Source of the DNA: Nitrospinae bacterium RIFCSPLOWO2_12_FULL_45_22
GTDB taxonomy: Bacteria > 2-12-FULL-45-22
DNA length: 9,132 bases
Assembly (NCBI GenBank): GCA_001803565.1
Contig: MHDQ01000178.1
Coordinates: forward strand, 1-9,132
Direction: 5' to 3'
In this document: in pieces, positions 1 to 5,132 of the stretch
Numbering within the stretch: position 1 is the first letter of the stretch
How the letters are laid out: every line of letters begins with the position of its first letter
The notes under the pieces: model-generated
Database searches by the model: none
Told to the model about the DNA's origin: nothing
The model's input: only the letters and a program-made list of their open reading frames with translations
Program-made: the position numbers and the translations under genes

Positions 1-676
1 CTGCTTCTATTATCCCGGCCAGGATAGTCTCCTTAGATTTACCCTTATGGATATGGGATATGACCTCAGATTCTGCAAAGACCGTGCAGTAGCTACTGAC
101 CCGTTCGATATGCTGGGCGTGGCAGGCCAACTCTCCTACCTCATCCAGGGATACCTGTAATAGGTTGGCCATAATTTCCAGGAAGGCCCCGGTACCGGCG
201 GCACATTTGCTGTTACAGACAAAATTTTTCACCCCGCCTTTTTCATCCAGCTTCATCGCCCGGGTCCCCTCGGCACCAATATCCAATACGGTCCGGGCTG
301 TCGGGAACAAGTAAAAGGCCCCGCGGGCATGACTCAACTGCTCAGTACGGGTTTTCTGGGCAAAACTGACCGTGCTACGGCCCACACCCGTAGCAACTAT
401 ATACGTCAGGTCTGAGCGGGAAAGCCCGGTGTCAGCCAGAATTTGCTCCATAGCTGTTTTAGAACCTACTGCCCCTCCTTCTTCGGTTACCAGGGTCTTG
501 GTGGCGATAATATGGGAGGAATTAGATGGGGCAGAGCAAGCCTTCGGGCTGAGGCCCTCTAGGCCGAAGGCTCTGCCACTACAGTTATGATCTGTCCTGG
601 CGGCCAATATTTGGCTATTGGATAAAACCACAACTTTGATACTCTGAGTCCCTACATCTATCCCGGCAGTTATCAT
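1..676 (-). CDS. BcrA/BadF/BcrD/HgdC-family activator ATPase, 3' end cut off by the window edge
   Basis: The first 225 residues are visible (ATG at 676-674); the C-terminus lies beyond base 1. The protein starts with the acetate kinase/Hsp70-type phosphate loop GIDVGTQSIK (5-14). It then has ATGVGRS (95-101), DIGAEG (132-137), NSKCAAGTGAFLE (155-167) and YCTVFAESEVIS (196-207). By family knowledge, C158 and C197 each give one or more ligands to the [4Fe-4S] cluster shared across a homodimer; their 39-residue spacing matches that in HgdC. ATP hydrolysis drives single-electron transfer to the partner dehydratase/reductase. The gene starts 6 nt after the stop of the upstream 392-aa core subunit, with only a weak ribosome site, so it is probably translationally coupled. 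Residues 29-55 have no counterpart in the family and look inserted. DIGAEG, rather than HgdC's DIGGQD, resembles the BcrD/BadG branch as I recall it (inference). Family certain, exact substrate system open. Confidence 0.93.
   Translation of the reverse strand, partial: MITAGIDVGTQSIKVVVLSNSQILAARTDHNCSGRAFGLEGLSPKACSAPSNSSHIIATKTLVTEEGGAVGSKTAMEQILADTGLSRSDLTYIVATGVGRSTVSFAQKTRTEQLSHARGAFYLFPTARTVLDIGAEGTRAMKLDEKGGVKNFVCNSKCAAGTGAFLEIMANLLQVSLDEVGELACHAQHIERVSSYCTVFAESEVISHIHKGKSKETILAGIIEA
494..610 (-). repeat. Palindromic element inserted in frame in the ATPase gene, flanked by a diverged 18-bp direct repeat
   Basis: The core is an inverted repeat: GGCAGAG + CCTTCGG (530-536 and 541-547, with a 4-nt CAAG bulge) against CCGAAGGCTCTGCC at 564-577, with a 16-nt centre that includes a repeated AGGCC. 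On both sides lie similar 18-mers (494-511 and 593-610, 12 of 18 identical by hand count), encoding IIATKT and ILAART. Either one fits the family position equivalent to EIVAKS in HgdC as I recall it. The first cluster cysteine is residue 158, compared with 127 in HgdC, so the gene is about 31 residues longer upstream of it. This looks like an in-frame palindromic insertion, comparable in style to Rickettsia palindromic elements; that comparison is an analogy, not homology. Confidence 0.55.
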
Positions 677-682
677 CAGTGT

Positions 683-1861
683 TTATCCACCGATCATTTC
701 AATGAAGGCCTCGATACTGCCCCGCATCTGCTCTAACCCTTCCAGGGTATAATCCCCTTCCATATGTAAAACCGGTATGTTGAACTCCCGCTGGATATTA
801 TCTCTCAGGTGGGGATACTCGATAGCCCGGCATTCGCAATAATTCATGATCTGATAGATAGCCCCTCTTACCCTATAGCCCTCTATCCTTTGTTTGGTCT
901 TCTGCCAGCGGTTTTGTGGATGGATATGGCTGCAACCTACCAGACAGGTCTCGGTAGAGCGGGGACAATCCACTGCCAGTGAATATTTAGCAATAGCCCG
1001 TACCGGATCGCTATCTAGCTCGATATTCGACTCGAAATAGCTGCTGGCACAGCTTATATCCTCCGCCACTACCTGGCCACCACACTCTTCTATGATCTCG
1101 TAAAGTCGGGCATTTACCTGATCAAAGGCGCTCCCGGCCAGATAGAGCCTCATACCGGGGGTGGTGTTATTTCTTTTAGCTACCTCGGTCAATCGTTTCT
1201 TCAATAACTCATTATGCTTATCCATAGGCATGAGGGTACTGGCATATTCTATCTCCCAGGCCTCTTTGCCCGATATAGGCAAGGGGTCCCGCTTCCTTAG
1301 TTCCTCCAGTTGGTTCATTAAGTCAAAATGTTCGTTATATACTGCTATGGCCTGGTTTAATTGCTCATCAGTTATCTCTATCCTGAGACCCCGCTCGACT
1401 TGTTGCTTGAAATATTGGAGCTCGCGGGTATAAAAATCTAGTACTTTAGGCCCGGTAGTCTTCATAGGATAATTTATATAGACCACATAAGGGCAAAGCT
1501 CCATACCCGCCAGGGTAGATTTTTCTCTGGGTACTAATTCCCGCCACCAGTACTCCATCCGGGCAATAAGGTCACAGGTATTAGGGACTACTACCCCATC
1601 CAGGTAATCATAGACCCCCCGGGCACCAAGGTCTAAACAGCTACCTACATAGCGACAGCCATAAGGCACCAAATGGCCATCAACTTTCTGAAACTTATCC
1701 GTACTGCCGTAGATCCTGACGGGTAAAACACCTGCTGCAAACAAGATCACATCGGGTACTACGCAACAAAAATAACCAAAGACCTTGCCCTGGGTCTTTT
1801 CTTTCCACTCCTTTACTGCCGCATGACGGTCGGTCACATATTTTTCGAATTCCGTGGTCAT
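683..1861 (-). CDS. BcrC/HgdB-type core subunit (2-hydroxyacyl-CoA dehydratase / benzoyl-CoA reductase family, 392 aa)
   Basis: This is the smaller core subunit of a two-subunit Fe-S enzyme that takes activated electrons from the ATPase encoded just downstream. Length (392 aa) and layout match BcrC (about 385 aa) and HgdB (about 380 aa). Likely cluster-ligand cysteines are C69 (PYGCR, where BcrC has a similar YICR), C96 (PNTCDLI) and C342 (MNYCECR). The C-terminus has the family ending GIP-like NIPVLHMEGDY followed by GLEQMRGSIEAFIEMI (368-390). The AAGGAGGG-type ribosome site at 1867-1874 overlaps the stop codon of the 437-aa subunit gene, indicating coupled translation and a 1:1 complex. 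Whether the reaction is ring reduction of an aromatic acyl-CoA or dehydration of a 2-hydroxyacyl-CoA cannot be decided from this protein alone. The family is clear. Confidence 0.9.
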   Translation of the reverse strand: MTTEFEKYVTDRHAAVKEWKEKTQGKVFGYFCCVVPDVILFAAGVLPVRIYGSTDKFQKVDGHLVPYGCRYVGSCLDLGARGVYDYLDGVVVPNTCDLIARMEYWWRELVPREKSTLAGMELCPYVVYINYPMKTTGPKVLDFYTRELQYFKQQVERGLRIEITDEQLNQAIAVYNEHFDLMNQLEELRKRDPLPISGKEAWEIEYASTLMPMDKHNELLKKRLTEVAKRNNTTPGMRLYLAGSAFDQVNARLYEIIEECGGQVVAEDISCASSYFESNIELDSDPVRAIAKYSLAVDCPRSTETCLVGCSHIHPQNRWQKTKQRIEGYRVRGAIYQIMNYCECRAIEYPHLRDNIQREFNIPVLHMEGDYTLEGLEQMRGSIEAFIEMIGG

Positions 1862-1866
1862 CTCTT

Positions 1867-1874
1867 CCCTCCTT
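1867..1874 (-). promoter_or_regulatory. Ribosome binding site overlapping the upstream stop codon
   Basis: The minus strand reads AAGGAGGG here, 5 nt from the ATG of the 392-aa subunit, and its first bases belong to the TAA stop (1875-1873) of the 437-aa subunit gene. It confirms the start and implies translational coupling of the two subunits. Confidence 0.8.
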
Positions 1875-3186
1875 ATCTTTTTTTTGCCCTTTGTAACAGT
1901 TGCTCAGCAAAGGCATCCAACCGGTTATATACCTGGGCCTCAGAAAATAGCCGCTCATCTACCAGGTCCCCTTCCAGAGTCACTGTGGGTATTCCCAGGC
2001 TCTTCTCCAGGGTGTGATTGATCTCTAAGCTAGGAAAGACAATGGGCCGGCAGGTAATCAGATAGGATAATACTACGCCCAAGATCTTGTATTGCTGGCA
2101 GTCATGCAGCATGGAATTGACCATATTACCCACACCGGTACCCAGCATGAGCCAGCGGTTAGCCAGCTCCCGCACCGGGTCTTCGCGCCTCCTTGGCGGC
2201 CACGGCCAGGGGTTATATGCCGGCTCATAGACAAATACACCACCATATTTCTCAAAATAGTTGAAGATACTCATGTTATACCAGGTAGGCAAGCCATACC
2301 AGAGCAACCGGAACCACTCATCCTCAATCTGGCCAATTCCTTGCTTTACTCGTTCTCTGACTTCATCCCGTAGCTTGACATAAAAGTCGTAGCACCTCTT
2401 GGTGCCGAGCTGGTACATACCAGGATACATAGTACCAAAACCATCGGCACAGCCCATGGGTGATGGGACTGCTTTACGCAGCTCCAGTATCTCCTGGCGC
2501 GCATCATTGGTCTTATAAGACCAGTCCAGGCACTCATTGAGGCGGGCCGGATCATATTTGGCACCGGTAACCTCTTCAGCAAATCGAAGGAAGTCTTCTA
2601 CCTGCGAGACATAATAGTCCACTTCATGCTCCCGGGCTGAGGCCTGGGTGATCCCCTCAAAGATCCGCTCTGGCCTATCCAGGCAGAAATAGGGTACATT
2701 AAGCCGTTGCGCCATATCCTCGAACCATTTAACGCGTACATCACAGACACAACTGGTCGTAACTATCATATCCGGCAATGGCATCCCACCTATCGGTGCA
2801 TCCTGCCACTCGCCCGTTCTTAAGCCATGAATGACCCAGCCGGTAGAGACCCGCTGGTAGCCACAAATATAGCTGGCATAATCCTCCTGCTCTGCTACCC
2901 GGGCGAATCTCACGGCCTCCTTTTCTACCGATTCATCCCGGCTACCACCCCGGCGCTGTGTAGCACAGAGGGCCGCATATTGTTCCGGGAAAAAGGGCAA
3001 GATGCCCATGCAGTGAAACAACTCCTTATCCATCGCCGCACAAGACCAGGCGATAGGCTTTCCCTGGGCCTTGCCGGTATGGCCATTAATATAATCGTCT
3101 TTGATGAAGAGCCAGGTCTCCCGGGCGGTCTGCAGAGACTTTTTTGAGCCGGCTGTCTTGATCCTCGTCTCAGCTTGGGTAGTCAT
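1873..3186 (-). CDS. BcrB-type core subunit (2-hydroxyacyl-CoA dehydratase / benzoyl-CoA reductase family, 437 aa)
   Basis: This is the larger core subunit and the first gene of the leftward operon. Length equals that of BcrB (about 436 aa). Likely cluster cysteines are C108 (YICGY), C148 (SCVCDVRVKWFE; BcrB has a similar C..x..KWFE motif) and C379 (YLITCRPIV). The C-terminal block GIPTVTLEGDLVDERLFSEA followed by NRLDAF corresponds to the BcrB pattern of a TDLVDPRYFS-like motif followed by NRLE. A Trp/Pro/Arg-rich stretch (NPWPWPPRRRED, about residues 322-333) occupies a loop that I do not remember from relatives. The ATG is preceded by GAGGAGGG (3196-3203) at 9 nt spacing. It should form a heterodimer with the next gene's product. 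Benzoyl-CoA reductase-like resemblance is stronger than HgdA resemblance, but that is judged from memory of the families, not an alignment. Confidence 0.9.
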   Translation of the reverse strand: MTTQAETRIKTAGSKKSLQTARETWLFIKDDYINGHTGKAQGKPIAWSCAAMDKELFHCMGILPFFPEQYAALCATQRRGGSRDESVEKEAVRFARVAEQEDYASYICGYQRVSTGWVIHGLRTGEWQDAPIGGMPLPDMIVTTSCVCDVRVKWFEDMAQRLNVPYFCLDRPERIFEGITQASAREHEVDYYVSQVEDFLRFAEEVTGAKYDPARLNECLDWSYKTNDARQEILELRKAVPSPMGCADGFGTMYPGMYQLGTKRCYDFYVKLRDEVRERVKQGIGQIEDEWFRLLWYGLPTWYNMSIFNYFEKYGGVFVYEPAYNPWPWPPRRREDPVRELANRWLMLGTGVGNMVNSMLHDCQQYKILGVVLSYLITCRPIVFPSLEINHTLEKSLGIPTVTLEGDLVDERLFSEAQVYNRLDAFAEQLLQRAKKR

Positions 3187-3399: not shown

Positions 3400-3693
3400 A
3401 TGCAAAAACCACCCTTCATCGAAGCCTTAGAAAAGAATGCACCTGAACTTTTACCTGATGCTGCAAAGAATGTTGACTTTTTAAATGCGGATACGGCTTT
3501 GCCTGCAAAGGTAAAACTTTTAATGGCAGCTATGGTTGACGCTATAAAGAGTCATCCCGATGGAGTTAAGGCATTAGTGGGAATGGCAAGGCAAAAAGGG
3601 GCTAGCGAAGACGAGATAAAGGATACCCTAAGAGTTGTGTTGGCAATGGATGGTATGCCCGGTTTTGTCACAGCTACGGCAGCTTATCAGTAA
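3400..3693 (+). CDS. AhpD/carboxymuconolactone-decarboxylase-like small protein lacking cysteines (97 aa)
   Basis: An excellent ribosome site (AAGGAGGAG, 3386-3394) and its own promoter support this short gene. The second half (about 35-95) fits the all-helical CMD/AhpD fold: LPAKVKLLMAAMVDAI, then GASEDEIKDTLRVVLAMDGMPGFVTATAAY, where the GAS-x-EI motif and the following helix are the family's most recognisable part. In peroxidase members a CxxC-x3-H active site sits before GAS; here the matching stretch reads HPDG and the whole protein has no cysteine, so a thiol peroxidase role is excluded. The family is also known for non-catalytic or decarboxylase members. The function is unknown; position next to a dehydratase subunit gene suggests a role tied to the acyl-CoA pathway, which is inference. 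It could also be a stand-alone stress or regulatory protein. No signal peptide or membrane segment is seen. Confidence 0.75.
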   Translation: MQKPPFIEALEKNAPELLPDAAKNVDFLNADTALPAKVKLLMAAMVDAIKSHPDGVKALVGMARQKGASEDEIKDTLRVVLAMDGMPGFVTATAAYQ

Positions 3694-3821
3694 TATGCAG
3701 CGCAAAATTAGTTCTGGTATATGGCAAACCTTTTCATGGCAGAGACTCTTATGCGGTATACTTACAAACCCGCAGAGGGGCAAAGGCCGTTAAGAAAAAT
3801 CGAAAGCTAAAAGGTCAACTG

Positions 3822-5132
3822 ATGATGACCCACCGAATCTATCCTACAAAGCCCTTAGAATGTTGGCAAAAGGTCAAAGAATTAAGGCTGAATCATTATA
3901 AAGAAGTGATAACAGCTAGAGACCAAGGCAAAATTGTCGTACAGGGAGGAGCCAATGCCATCTTATCTCTCATAGCTGGCCTGGGAGACTTTGTTTTTCT
4001 GGGTGGGGAGCCTTATGGGGCCAGTGTTGGATTTGATCCGGCGTTTAGTGAACAATGTGCCATGGCTACCGAAGCTAAAGGGTTTGCCCGGGATCTATGT
4101 GCCTACATGAGAAATTATCTGGGCTCTATGTTTCTTGATCGCTATTATTTTGGTGGTAAGTTTCCAAAGCCGGATTTTTGTATTTCGACCCACATATGCG
4201 ATACTCACGCTAAGTGGTTCCAAATAGTTGGTGAGCACTTTGGCACGCCTCATATTGCAATTGACTATCCGATAAGTACCACTTACCGCCGCAAAGAGCA
4301 AAAGATTGAGTATCTGGCCTCACAGATGCATGAGTGTATTGAAGAGATGGAGAAACTAACAGGCTGTTATTATGATGATGAAAAATTGATAGAGGCCGCC
4401 CGGAATGAATTTAAAACCATGTCACTATGGGGTGAGATTTGTCTCTTAAACCAGTCTATACCCGCACCACTCGATCAGAAATCAATGCTCAGCCTATATG
4501 TCTTACCGCTCCAGACCAGACATCAGAACGAGACAGTGCAATTCTATGAACTTCTGAGGGACGAGGTAAAAGAAAGGGTGGAGAACCAGATAGCTGCTGT
4601 GGCTACAGAAAGGTTTCGCTATATAGATGACAGTCAACCACCCTGGTATTATTTAAAGATCTTCCGCTATTTGGAGAGATATGGAGCCGTTTCCGTAGGT
4701 TCCTACTATTCCTTTCTCCTTATGGGCATGATGGAAGAAAAGGGTGGGACCTGGGTAGTAAAAAAGACCCCTGAGGAGAGTGGAATAGTATTTAAGAGTC
4801 GGGATGATGTATTGCGGGCATTGGCCCAATGGTACTTAGAGAGGTCGGTCTTGTGTATGCTCCTCAATCCTCATGAGAAGAGCACCCAGATGATAAGTAT
4901 GGTGCAGCAGTGGCATGCCAAGGCAGTGATCATGCACCTCAATCGGGGTTGTGAAGGAACCGCTATGGGTCAACTGGAAAATAGACTGGCCTTGATAAAG
5001 GCAGGGATACCGGTCTTAACCTTCGAGTCAAATATGGCAGATCGGAGGGAATTTGATGAAACCCAGATTTTGGATCGGTTAGATGCCTTTATGCAAAGCC
5101 AGGGCTTAAGAAAATTGGATGATCTAGGCTAG
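3822..5132 (+). CDS. HgdA/FldB-like 2-hydroxyacyl-CoA dehydratase core subunit (436 aa)
   Basis: The family is recognised from GDFVFLGGEPYGA (55-67), DLCAYMRNYLG (91-101), HICDTHAKWF (124-133) and a C-terminal block HLNRGCEGTAMGQLENRLALIKAGIPVLTFESNMADRREFD in outline (about 371-410), which I recall as characteristic of HgdA/FldB-type subunits. Expected cluster ligands are C93, C126 and C377. The enzyme class dehydrates (R)-2-hydroxyacyl-CoA with one recycled electron from an activator ATPase. It differs clearly from the 437-aa BcrB-type protein transcribed the other way. The gene follows the CMD-like gene after 128 nt. The ribosome site is weak (AAAAGG, 3809-3814) and there are two adjacent ATGs (3822 and 3825); either could be used. 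No partner beta subunit or activator lies beside it on this strand, so it must share a partner, act with a distant one, or be a relic. Whether it is a dehydratase or a reductase subunit remains inference. Confidence 0.88.
   Translation: MMTHRIYPTKPLECWQKVKELRLNHYKEVITARDQGKIVVQGGANAILSLIAGLGDFVFLGGEPYGASVGFDPAFSEQCAMATEAKGFARDLCAYMRNYLGSMFLDRYYFGGKFPKPDFCISTHICDTHAKWFQIVGEHFGTPHIAIDYPISTTYRRKEQKIEYLASQMHECIEEMEKLTGCYYDDEKLIEAARNEFKTMSLWGEICLLNQSIPAPLDQKSMLSLYVLPLQTRHQNETVQFYELLRDEVKERVENQIAAVATERFRYIDDSQPPWYYLKIFRYLERYGAVSVGSYYSFLLMGMMEEKGGTWVVKKTPEESGIVFKSRDDVLRALAQWYLERSVLCMLLNPHEKSTQMISMVQQWHAKAVIMHLNRGCEGTAMGQLENRLALIKAGIPVLTFESNMADRREFDETQILDRLDAFMQSQGLRKLDDLG

Follow-up and report, generated by a model that had tools for sequence, protein, structure and literature searches.

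A GTAG-headed REP element in frame within the activator ATPase gene of a Nitrospinae bacterium

The window, meaning the whole stretch of DNA analysed here, comprises the 9,132 nt of positions 1 to 9,132 of contig MHDQ01000178.1 from the Nitrospinae bacterium RIFCSPLOWO2_12_FULL_45_22, the genome of which is a fragmented draft of 321 contigs that is 85% complete. Its minus strand carries an activator ATPase gene immediately 3' of the genes for two 2-hydroxyacyl-CoA dehydratase D-type subunits, both of these operon partners being intact. The contig end cuts off the 3' part of the ATPase gene, which is present as a partial ORF of 225 aa. The features of the locus are as follows:

2–676, minus strand: activator ATPase (BadF/BadG/BcrA/BcrD, HgdC type); ORF with PF01869 (E 7e-41) and PDB matches 4eht and 1hux
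683–1861, minus strand: 2-hydroxyacyl-CoA dehydratase D-type subunit of the ATPase operon (PF06050, E 5e-71)
1873–3186, minus strand: 2-hydroxyacyl-CoA dehydratase D-type subunit of the ATPase operon (PF06050, E 7e-56)
494–592, minus strand: 99-nt (33-codon) insertion, residues 29–61, from alignment with ~70 relatives and pLDDT below 50 at residues 32–65
593–610, minus strand: 18-mer encoding ILAART, strand 3, from 18-mer comparison and the AlphaFold2 model
494–511, minus strand: 18-mer encoding IIATKT, 12/18 identical to 593–610
530–583, minus strand: REP element TGTAGTGGCAGAGC...GCTCTGCC, 54 nt or 18 codons, long-loop subtype
579–582, minus strand: GTAG head preceded by CT, read from the sequence (TGTAG at 583–579)
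570–577, minus strand: outer REP stem, 5' arm GGCAGAGC
530–537, minus strand: outer REP stem, 3' arm GCTCTGCC
539–572, minus strand: inner palindrome forming the long loop, 34 nt, 100% identical at contigs C211 and C117

The ATPase was assigned to the BadF/HgdC activators on the basis of its PF01869 profile match and the presence of both [4Fe-4S] cysteines, C158 and C197, which form invariant columns in an alignment of 41 sequences. All invariant residues of the family are retained in the window protein, and six further matches to the family were found in the same genome. Like the HgdC/HadI activators (1hux, 4eht), the protein has an ASKHA fold and two cluster cysteines 39 residues apart, but unlike them it has 33 extra residues after strand 3. 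The first-pass annotation had given the same cysteine spacing together with a shift of 31 residues for the first cluster cysteine relative to HgdC, a value that fits 33 inserted residues and a start two residues shorter. The motif DIGAEG/DIGSEG was observed in this protein (residues around 132–140) and in L032 of the same order, most of the family having DIGGQD, which suggests from the sequences a separate subfamily. It should also be noted that the plus-strand region 3400–5132 of the window holds a third dehydratase D-type ORF (PF06050), which is divergent from the activator operon and follows a small carboxymuconolactone-decarboxylase-like ORF.

Alignment with ~70 relatives showed the 33-residue insertion to be private to the window protein, at residues 29–61 or equivalently 23–55. 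Extra residues had been annotated at this spot and they are indeed absent from the relatives, although their number is 33 and not the estimated 27 or so (residues 29–55). The insert is missing from the nearest relative, L032 (53–61% identical), in which ILATRV runs directly into the following segment, and from two other ATPase-family members of the window genome; it carries two cysteines, C32 and C47, as had been noted. An AlphaFold2 model built from 41 sequences (mean pLDDT 79.8) has a core like that of 4ehu and 1hux, with HgdC-type activators as the best structural matches, and comprises a strand at residues 22–30, an unstructured stretch at 32–65 (pLDDT below 50) and a helix at 68–83. In the model the insert thus follows strand 3 and precedes helix 1, instead of occupying an early beta-hairpin turn as had been proposed. 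The inserted stretch is probably a disordered loop that leaves the conserved residues intact, although its low pLDDT partly reflects the lack of aligned sequence there, making disorder likely rather than proven. The suggestion that an insertion might be tolerated at this site agrees with the model in structural terms.

Within the insertion, the annotated hairpin-forming palindrome at 530–577 was confirmed, with arms at 530–537/570–577 (100%) and 539–550/561–572 (92%), and the ATPase frame, read from 676 to 2, is open throughout it. Folding statistics were weak (RNA z −1.35, DNA z −1.68) and were set aside as the main evidence since the z-scores are unimpressive; the case for the palindrome is based on repeat-family evidence instead. 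When the genome was searched, the window element found matches with an E value of 6e-11 and 100% identity over 34 nt, and the outer arm CTGTAGTGGCAGAGC had many further matches with a 119-nt segment as query. Besides its two identical copies, the inner palindrome recurs with 91–97% identity at four contigs (C173, C246, C320 and C189) and as a broken copy at C268. The REP arm TGTAGTGGYMGAGC, allowing one mismatch at most, occurs 110 times in the genome versus once for the reversed control pattern. The unit is laid out as GTAG-TG-stem-TT-stem. In a set selected by the 5' arm alone, with the 3' arm left free, 62 of 90 copies were perfectly paired over 6 bp and the stem types stayed paired, namely GTCGAG/CTCGAC (29), GCAGAG/CTCTGC (28) and GCAAAG/CTTTGC (5). 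Since the 3' arm tracks the 5' arm in a set picked by the latter, it is the hairpin that is conserved. Units of the CA type and TC type frequently form head-to-head dimers, and CT directly precedes GTAG in 21 of the 48 CA-type copies, as it does in the window copy. The family as a whole shows the characters of GTAG REPs, i.e. a GTAG end, a compensatory stem-loop, many dispersed and mainly intergenic copies, and inverted dimers; judged from its sequence, the window element is a GTAG-headed REP of the long-loop subtype inside a gene. At seven loci (L020, L022, L025, L029, L030, L004 and L209) REP dimers were observed inside longer repeats which end like GGGTGTGGCTATT...AATAGCCACACCC, with a second type having TAATTAGTTGCCACTGAAAAA ends; these REPs are apparently nested in MITE-like elements.

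The window REP encodes CSGRAFGLEGLSPKACSA, residues 32–49 of the ATPase, and its 54 nt leave 45 nt (15 codons) of the 99-nt insertion unaccounted for. These remaining codons encode DHN, PSNSSH and one of the two alike strands ILAART and IIATKT. The bordering 18-mers (494–511 and 593–610) had been described as similar; they match at 12 of 18 positions, a value equalled by ~0.1% of the codon-aligned 18-mer pairs in the ATPase gene, so that the likeness is, at the level of sequence, real but weak. It may reflect an old duplication or chance. A fresh target-site duplication was rejected, because other copies match the REP core at 34 of 34 positions, against only 12 of 18 for the two 18-mers.

The position of the copies in the window genome was then considered. 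Among ~97 REP arms inspected with their context, the ATPase copy was the sole clear one deep in a conserved gene; one arm falls close to the C-terminal end of an MtaB-like ORF and the rest are intergenic or upstream of true starts. In 238 kb of the genome (86% ORF cover), on contigs chosen partly for carrying REPs, none of 24 units lay inside a real gene, a result with a chance of 3e-21 under placement by ORF cover. The REPs are therefore kept out of genes by selection or site choice. Thus the earlier proposal of a family of protein-invading repeats in this organism is supported as regards the many genomic copies, but not as regards protein invasion. Five in-ORF matches (L164, L202, L204, L213 and L217) were discarded as upstream extensions of true starts, and TGTAGTGG-like matches within two ORFs, L227 and L303, appear to be fortuitous and not REPs.

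Identical 22-nt REP units were detected in two genomes, G039 and G060, both from one other phylum, and a search of 97 genomes with the full unit gave matches in these two only. Four other tested genomes had scattered single arm matches, and the units were not found in G001, a genome of the window's own order. Counting close variants, there are 151 units in G039, 15 in G060 and 64 in the window genome. Within G039, a 1.7-Mb draft, wholesale in-frame REP insertions, often tandem, were seen in conserved housekeeping enzymes at ten loci (L263, L280, L328, L338, L339, L342, L344, L186, L188 and L191). The conserved proteins carrying them, under short names that are a reading of Pfam and PDB matches, are TopA, DprA, IspE (with seven tandem units), IspG, ThiL, TrpE, TrpG, the CCA-adding enzyme, Asd, a TsaB-like protein, an oligopeptide ABC ATPase and a radical SAM activase. 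Alignment of IspE, TopA, TrpE and ThiL to solved structures showed the REP peptides as added segments between conserved blocks. In a 389-kb sample of G039, half of it picked for REPs, 27 of 110 units lay within ORFs. Tandem spacing within genes was 24 or 30 nt in six of six cases, compared with multiples of three only in part among the 31 cases outside genes (Fisher p 0.002, from small numbers and with the tandem pairs of one gene being non-independent). Single in-frame units occur in G060 at four loci (L237, L241, L247 and L257), in ORFs that were named from their sequences rather than by a family scan as ThrC-like, GltX-like, hydrogenase-protease-like and Memo/AMMECR1-like. The frame used in the window, TGT AGT GGC AGA (CSGR), recurs in copies from the other phylum alongside further frames; a short unit has no stop codon in most of its six frames. 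Protein-invading behaviour is genuine in the other phylum, more so than in the window organism. It is tentatively suggested, as a possibility somewhat short of an even chance, that one REP lineage spread between two phyla and became a wholesale protein invader in one of them, with the window copy as an uncommon protein insertion from the end of the spectrum where REPs are intergenic. If so, tandem REP arrays would lie in frame within essential housekeeping enzymes, unit and spacer together measuring 24 or 30 nt and so preserving the frame.

Five Y1 transposase loci were found in the window genome. One of these, L174 (1342–2060 on contig C141), is flanked by two GTAGTG hairpins of opposite orientation, one immediately ahead of the gene's conserved part and one behind it, while a third GTAGTG hairpin, EPAGSDRSPDLSS, lies in frame within the transposase ORF. 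For TnpA_REP of Escherichia coli, recognition and cleavage in vitro use GTAG and a nearby CT, with the CT beside the REP as the cleavage dinucleotide (PMC8266576). The arrangement here resembles the REPtrons and TnpA_REP (RAYT) of that study in having GTAG 5' of the hairpin, an adjoining CT and a Y1 gene with flanking GTAGTG hairpins at L174. It differs in that the stem of the L174 hairpins, GGCAGGTC, is not one of those of the abundant REP family, and in that no transposase was linked to the exact window family; a transposase gene flanked by the exact window-type REP was not found in the 85%-complete genome. A second Y1 transposase, L173 (C49), is surrounded by GTAGGG...GGCATTGCC hairpins of a different REP type.

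Taken together, the best explanation is with high probability that a REP was inserted in frame in the ATPase gene, where it adds an extra stretch as a probably disordered loop. The REP family, its GTAG head with compensatory stem, the in-frame insertion and the intact conserved residues are all observed. As regards the mechanism, a REP-associated (Y1/HUH) transposase would have mobilised the REP in single-stranded form and a GTAG-headed long-loop copy would, as a rare event, have entered the activator ATPase gene. The gene would have stayed open because the element amounts to 18 codons without stops in the frame used. The insert would then protrude from the ATPase, which presumably remains active, at the junction of strand 3 with helix 1, and would have been retained through selection for the frame and a tolerant loop; its survival is attributed to whole codons, an open frame and a tolerant site.

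Other explanations of the insert were weighed against this in-frame REP insertion. A dedicated protein invader of the window genome, of the Rickettsia palindromic element (RPE) type, would also be in frame and palindromic with few stops and a tolerant loop, and RPE are known as palindromic in-frame insertions in conserved proteins. Yet the family is intergenic in the window genome except for the ATPase copy, many in-frame copies in conserved genes being found instead in G039, and its end tag is GTAG while the RPE of R. conorii have a CGTC tag (Di Nocera et al. 2013; PMC3733652) and another sequence; this origin is considered very unlikely. It is also unlikely that the ATPase gene is now a pseudogene, its frame open through luck or youth. 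The gene does leave the contig and six other matches to its family exist in the genome, but its 225 codons are open with every invariant residue kept, the rest of the operon is undamaged, and conserved proteins of G039 and G060 bear inserts of this kind.

The insert could alternatively be a selected functional loop, providing for example two extra cysteines or an expression-tuning mRNA hairpin, as C32 and C47 lie within it and the region can form a hairpin as RNA. Against this quite implausible reading, the RNA z-score is just −1.35, both cysteines come from ordinary REP codons (CSGRA..ACSA), as they do in unrelated G039 proteins, and the loop is probably disordered. Finally, an assembly artefact, in which a repeat joined two contig pieces, may be envisaged for a repeated segment in a draft of so many contigs; it is barely credible, given that the sequences flanking the REP share a frame and encode two halves of a single protein that match each other.

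The in-frame REP of the window adds to a known kind, as GTAG-tagged REPs including intragenic ones, most of the latter in O. terrae, have been described (Di Nocera et al. 2013; PMC3733652). These published GTAG REPs share with the present family the GTAG end, the short perfect stem, a short or long self-complementary loop (long in some published families), the head-to-head dimers and a mainly intergenic position with some copies in frame in genes. This comparison with the 24 published GTAG families is by description and not by stem sequence, and the present case differs in the genomes concerned and in the identical units common to two phyla. A literature search for such in-gene REPs in metagenome-assembled genomes found nothing specific. 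The window copy is a case in which a conserved redox enzyme partner has gained a peptide from a REP, an element usually termed extragenic. With the related insertions of G039 and G060, over a dozen enzymes carry this repeat peptide, read in several frames; such a natural collection would make it possible to measure which protein loops accept insertions, and whether REP mobility creates new protein segments.
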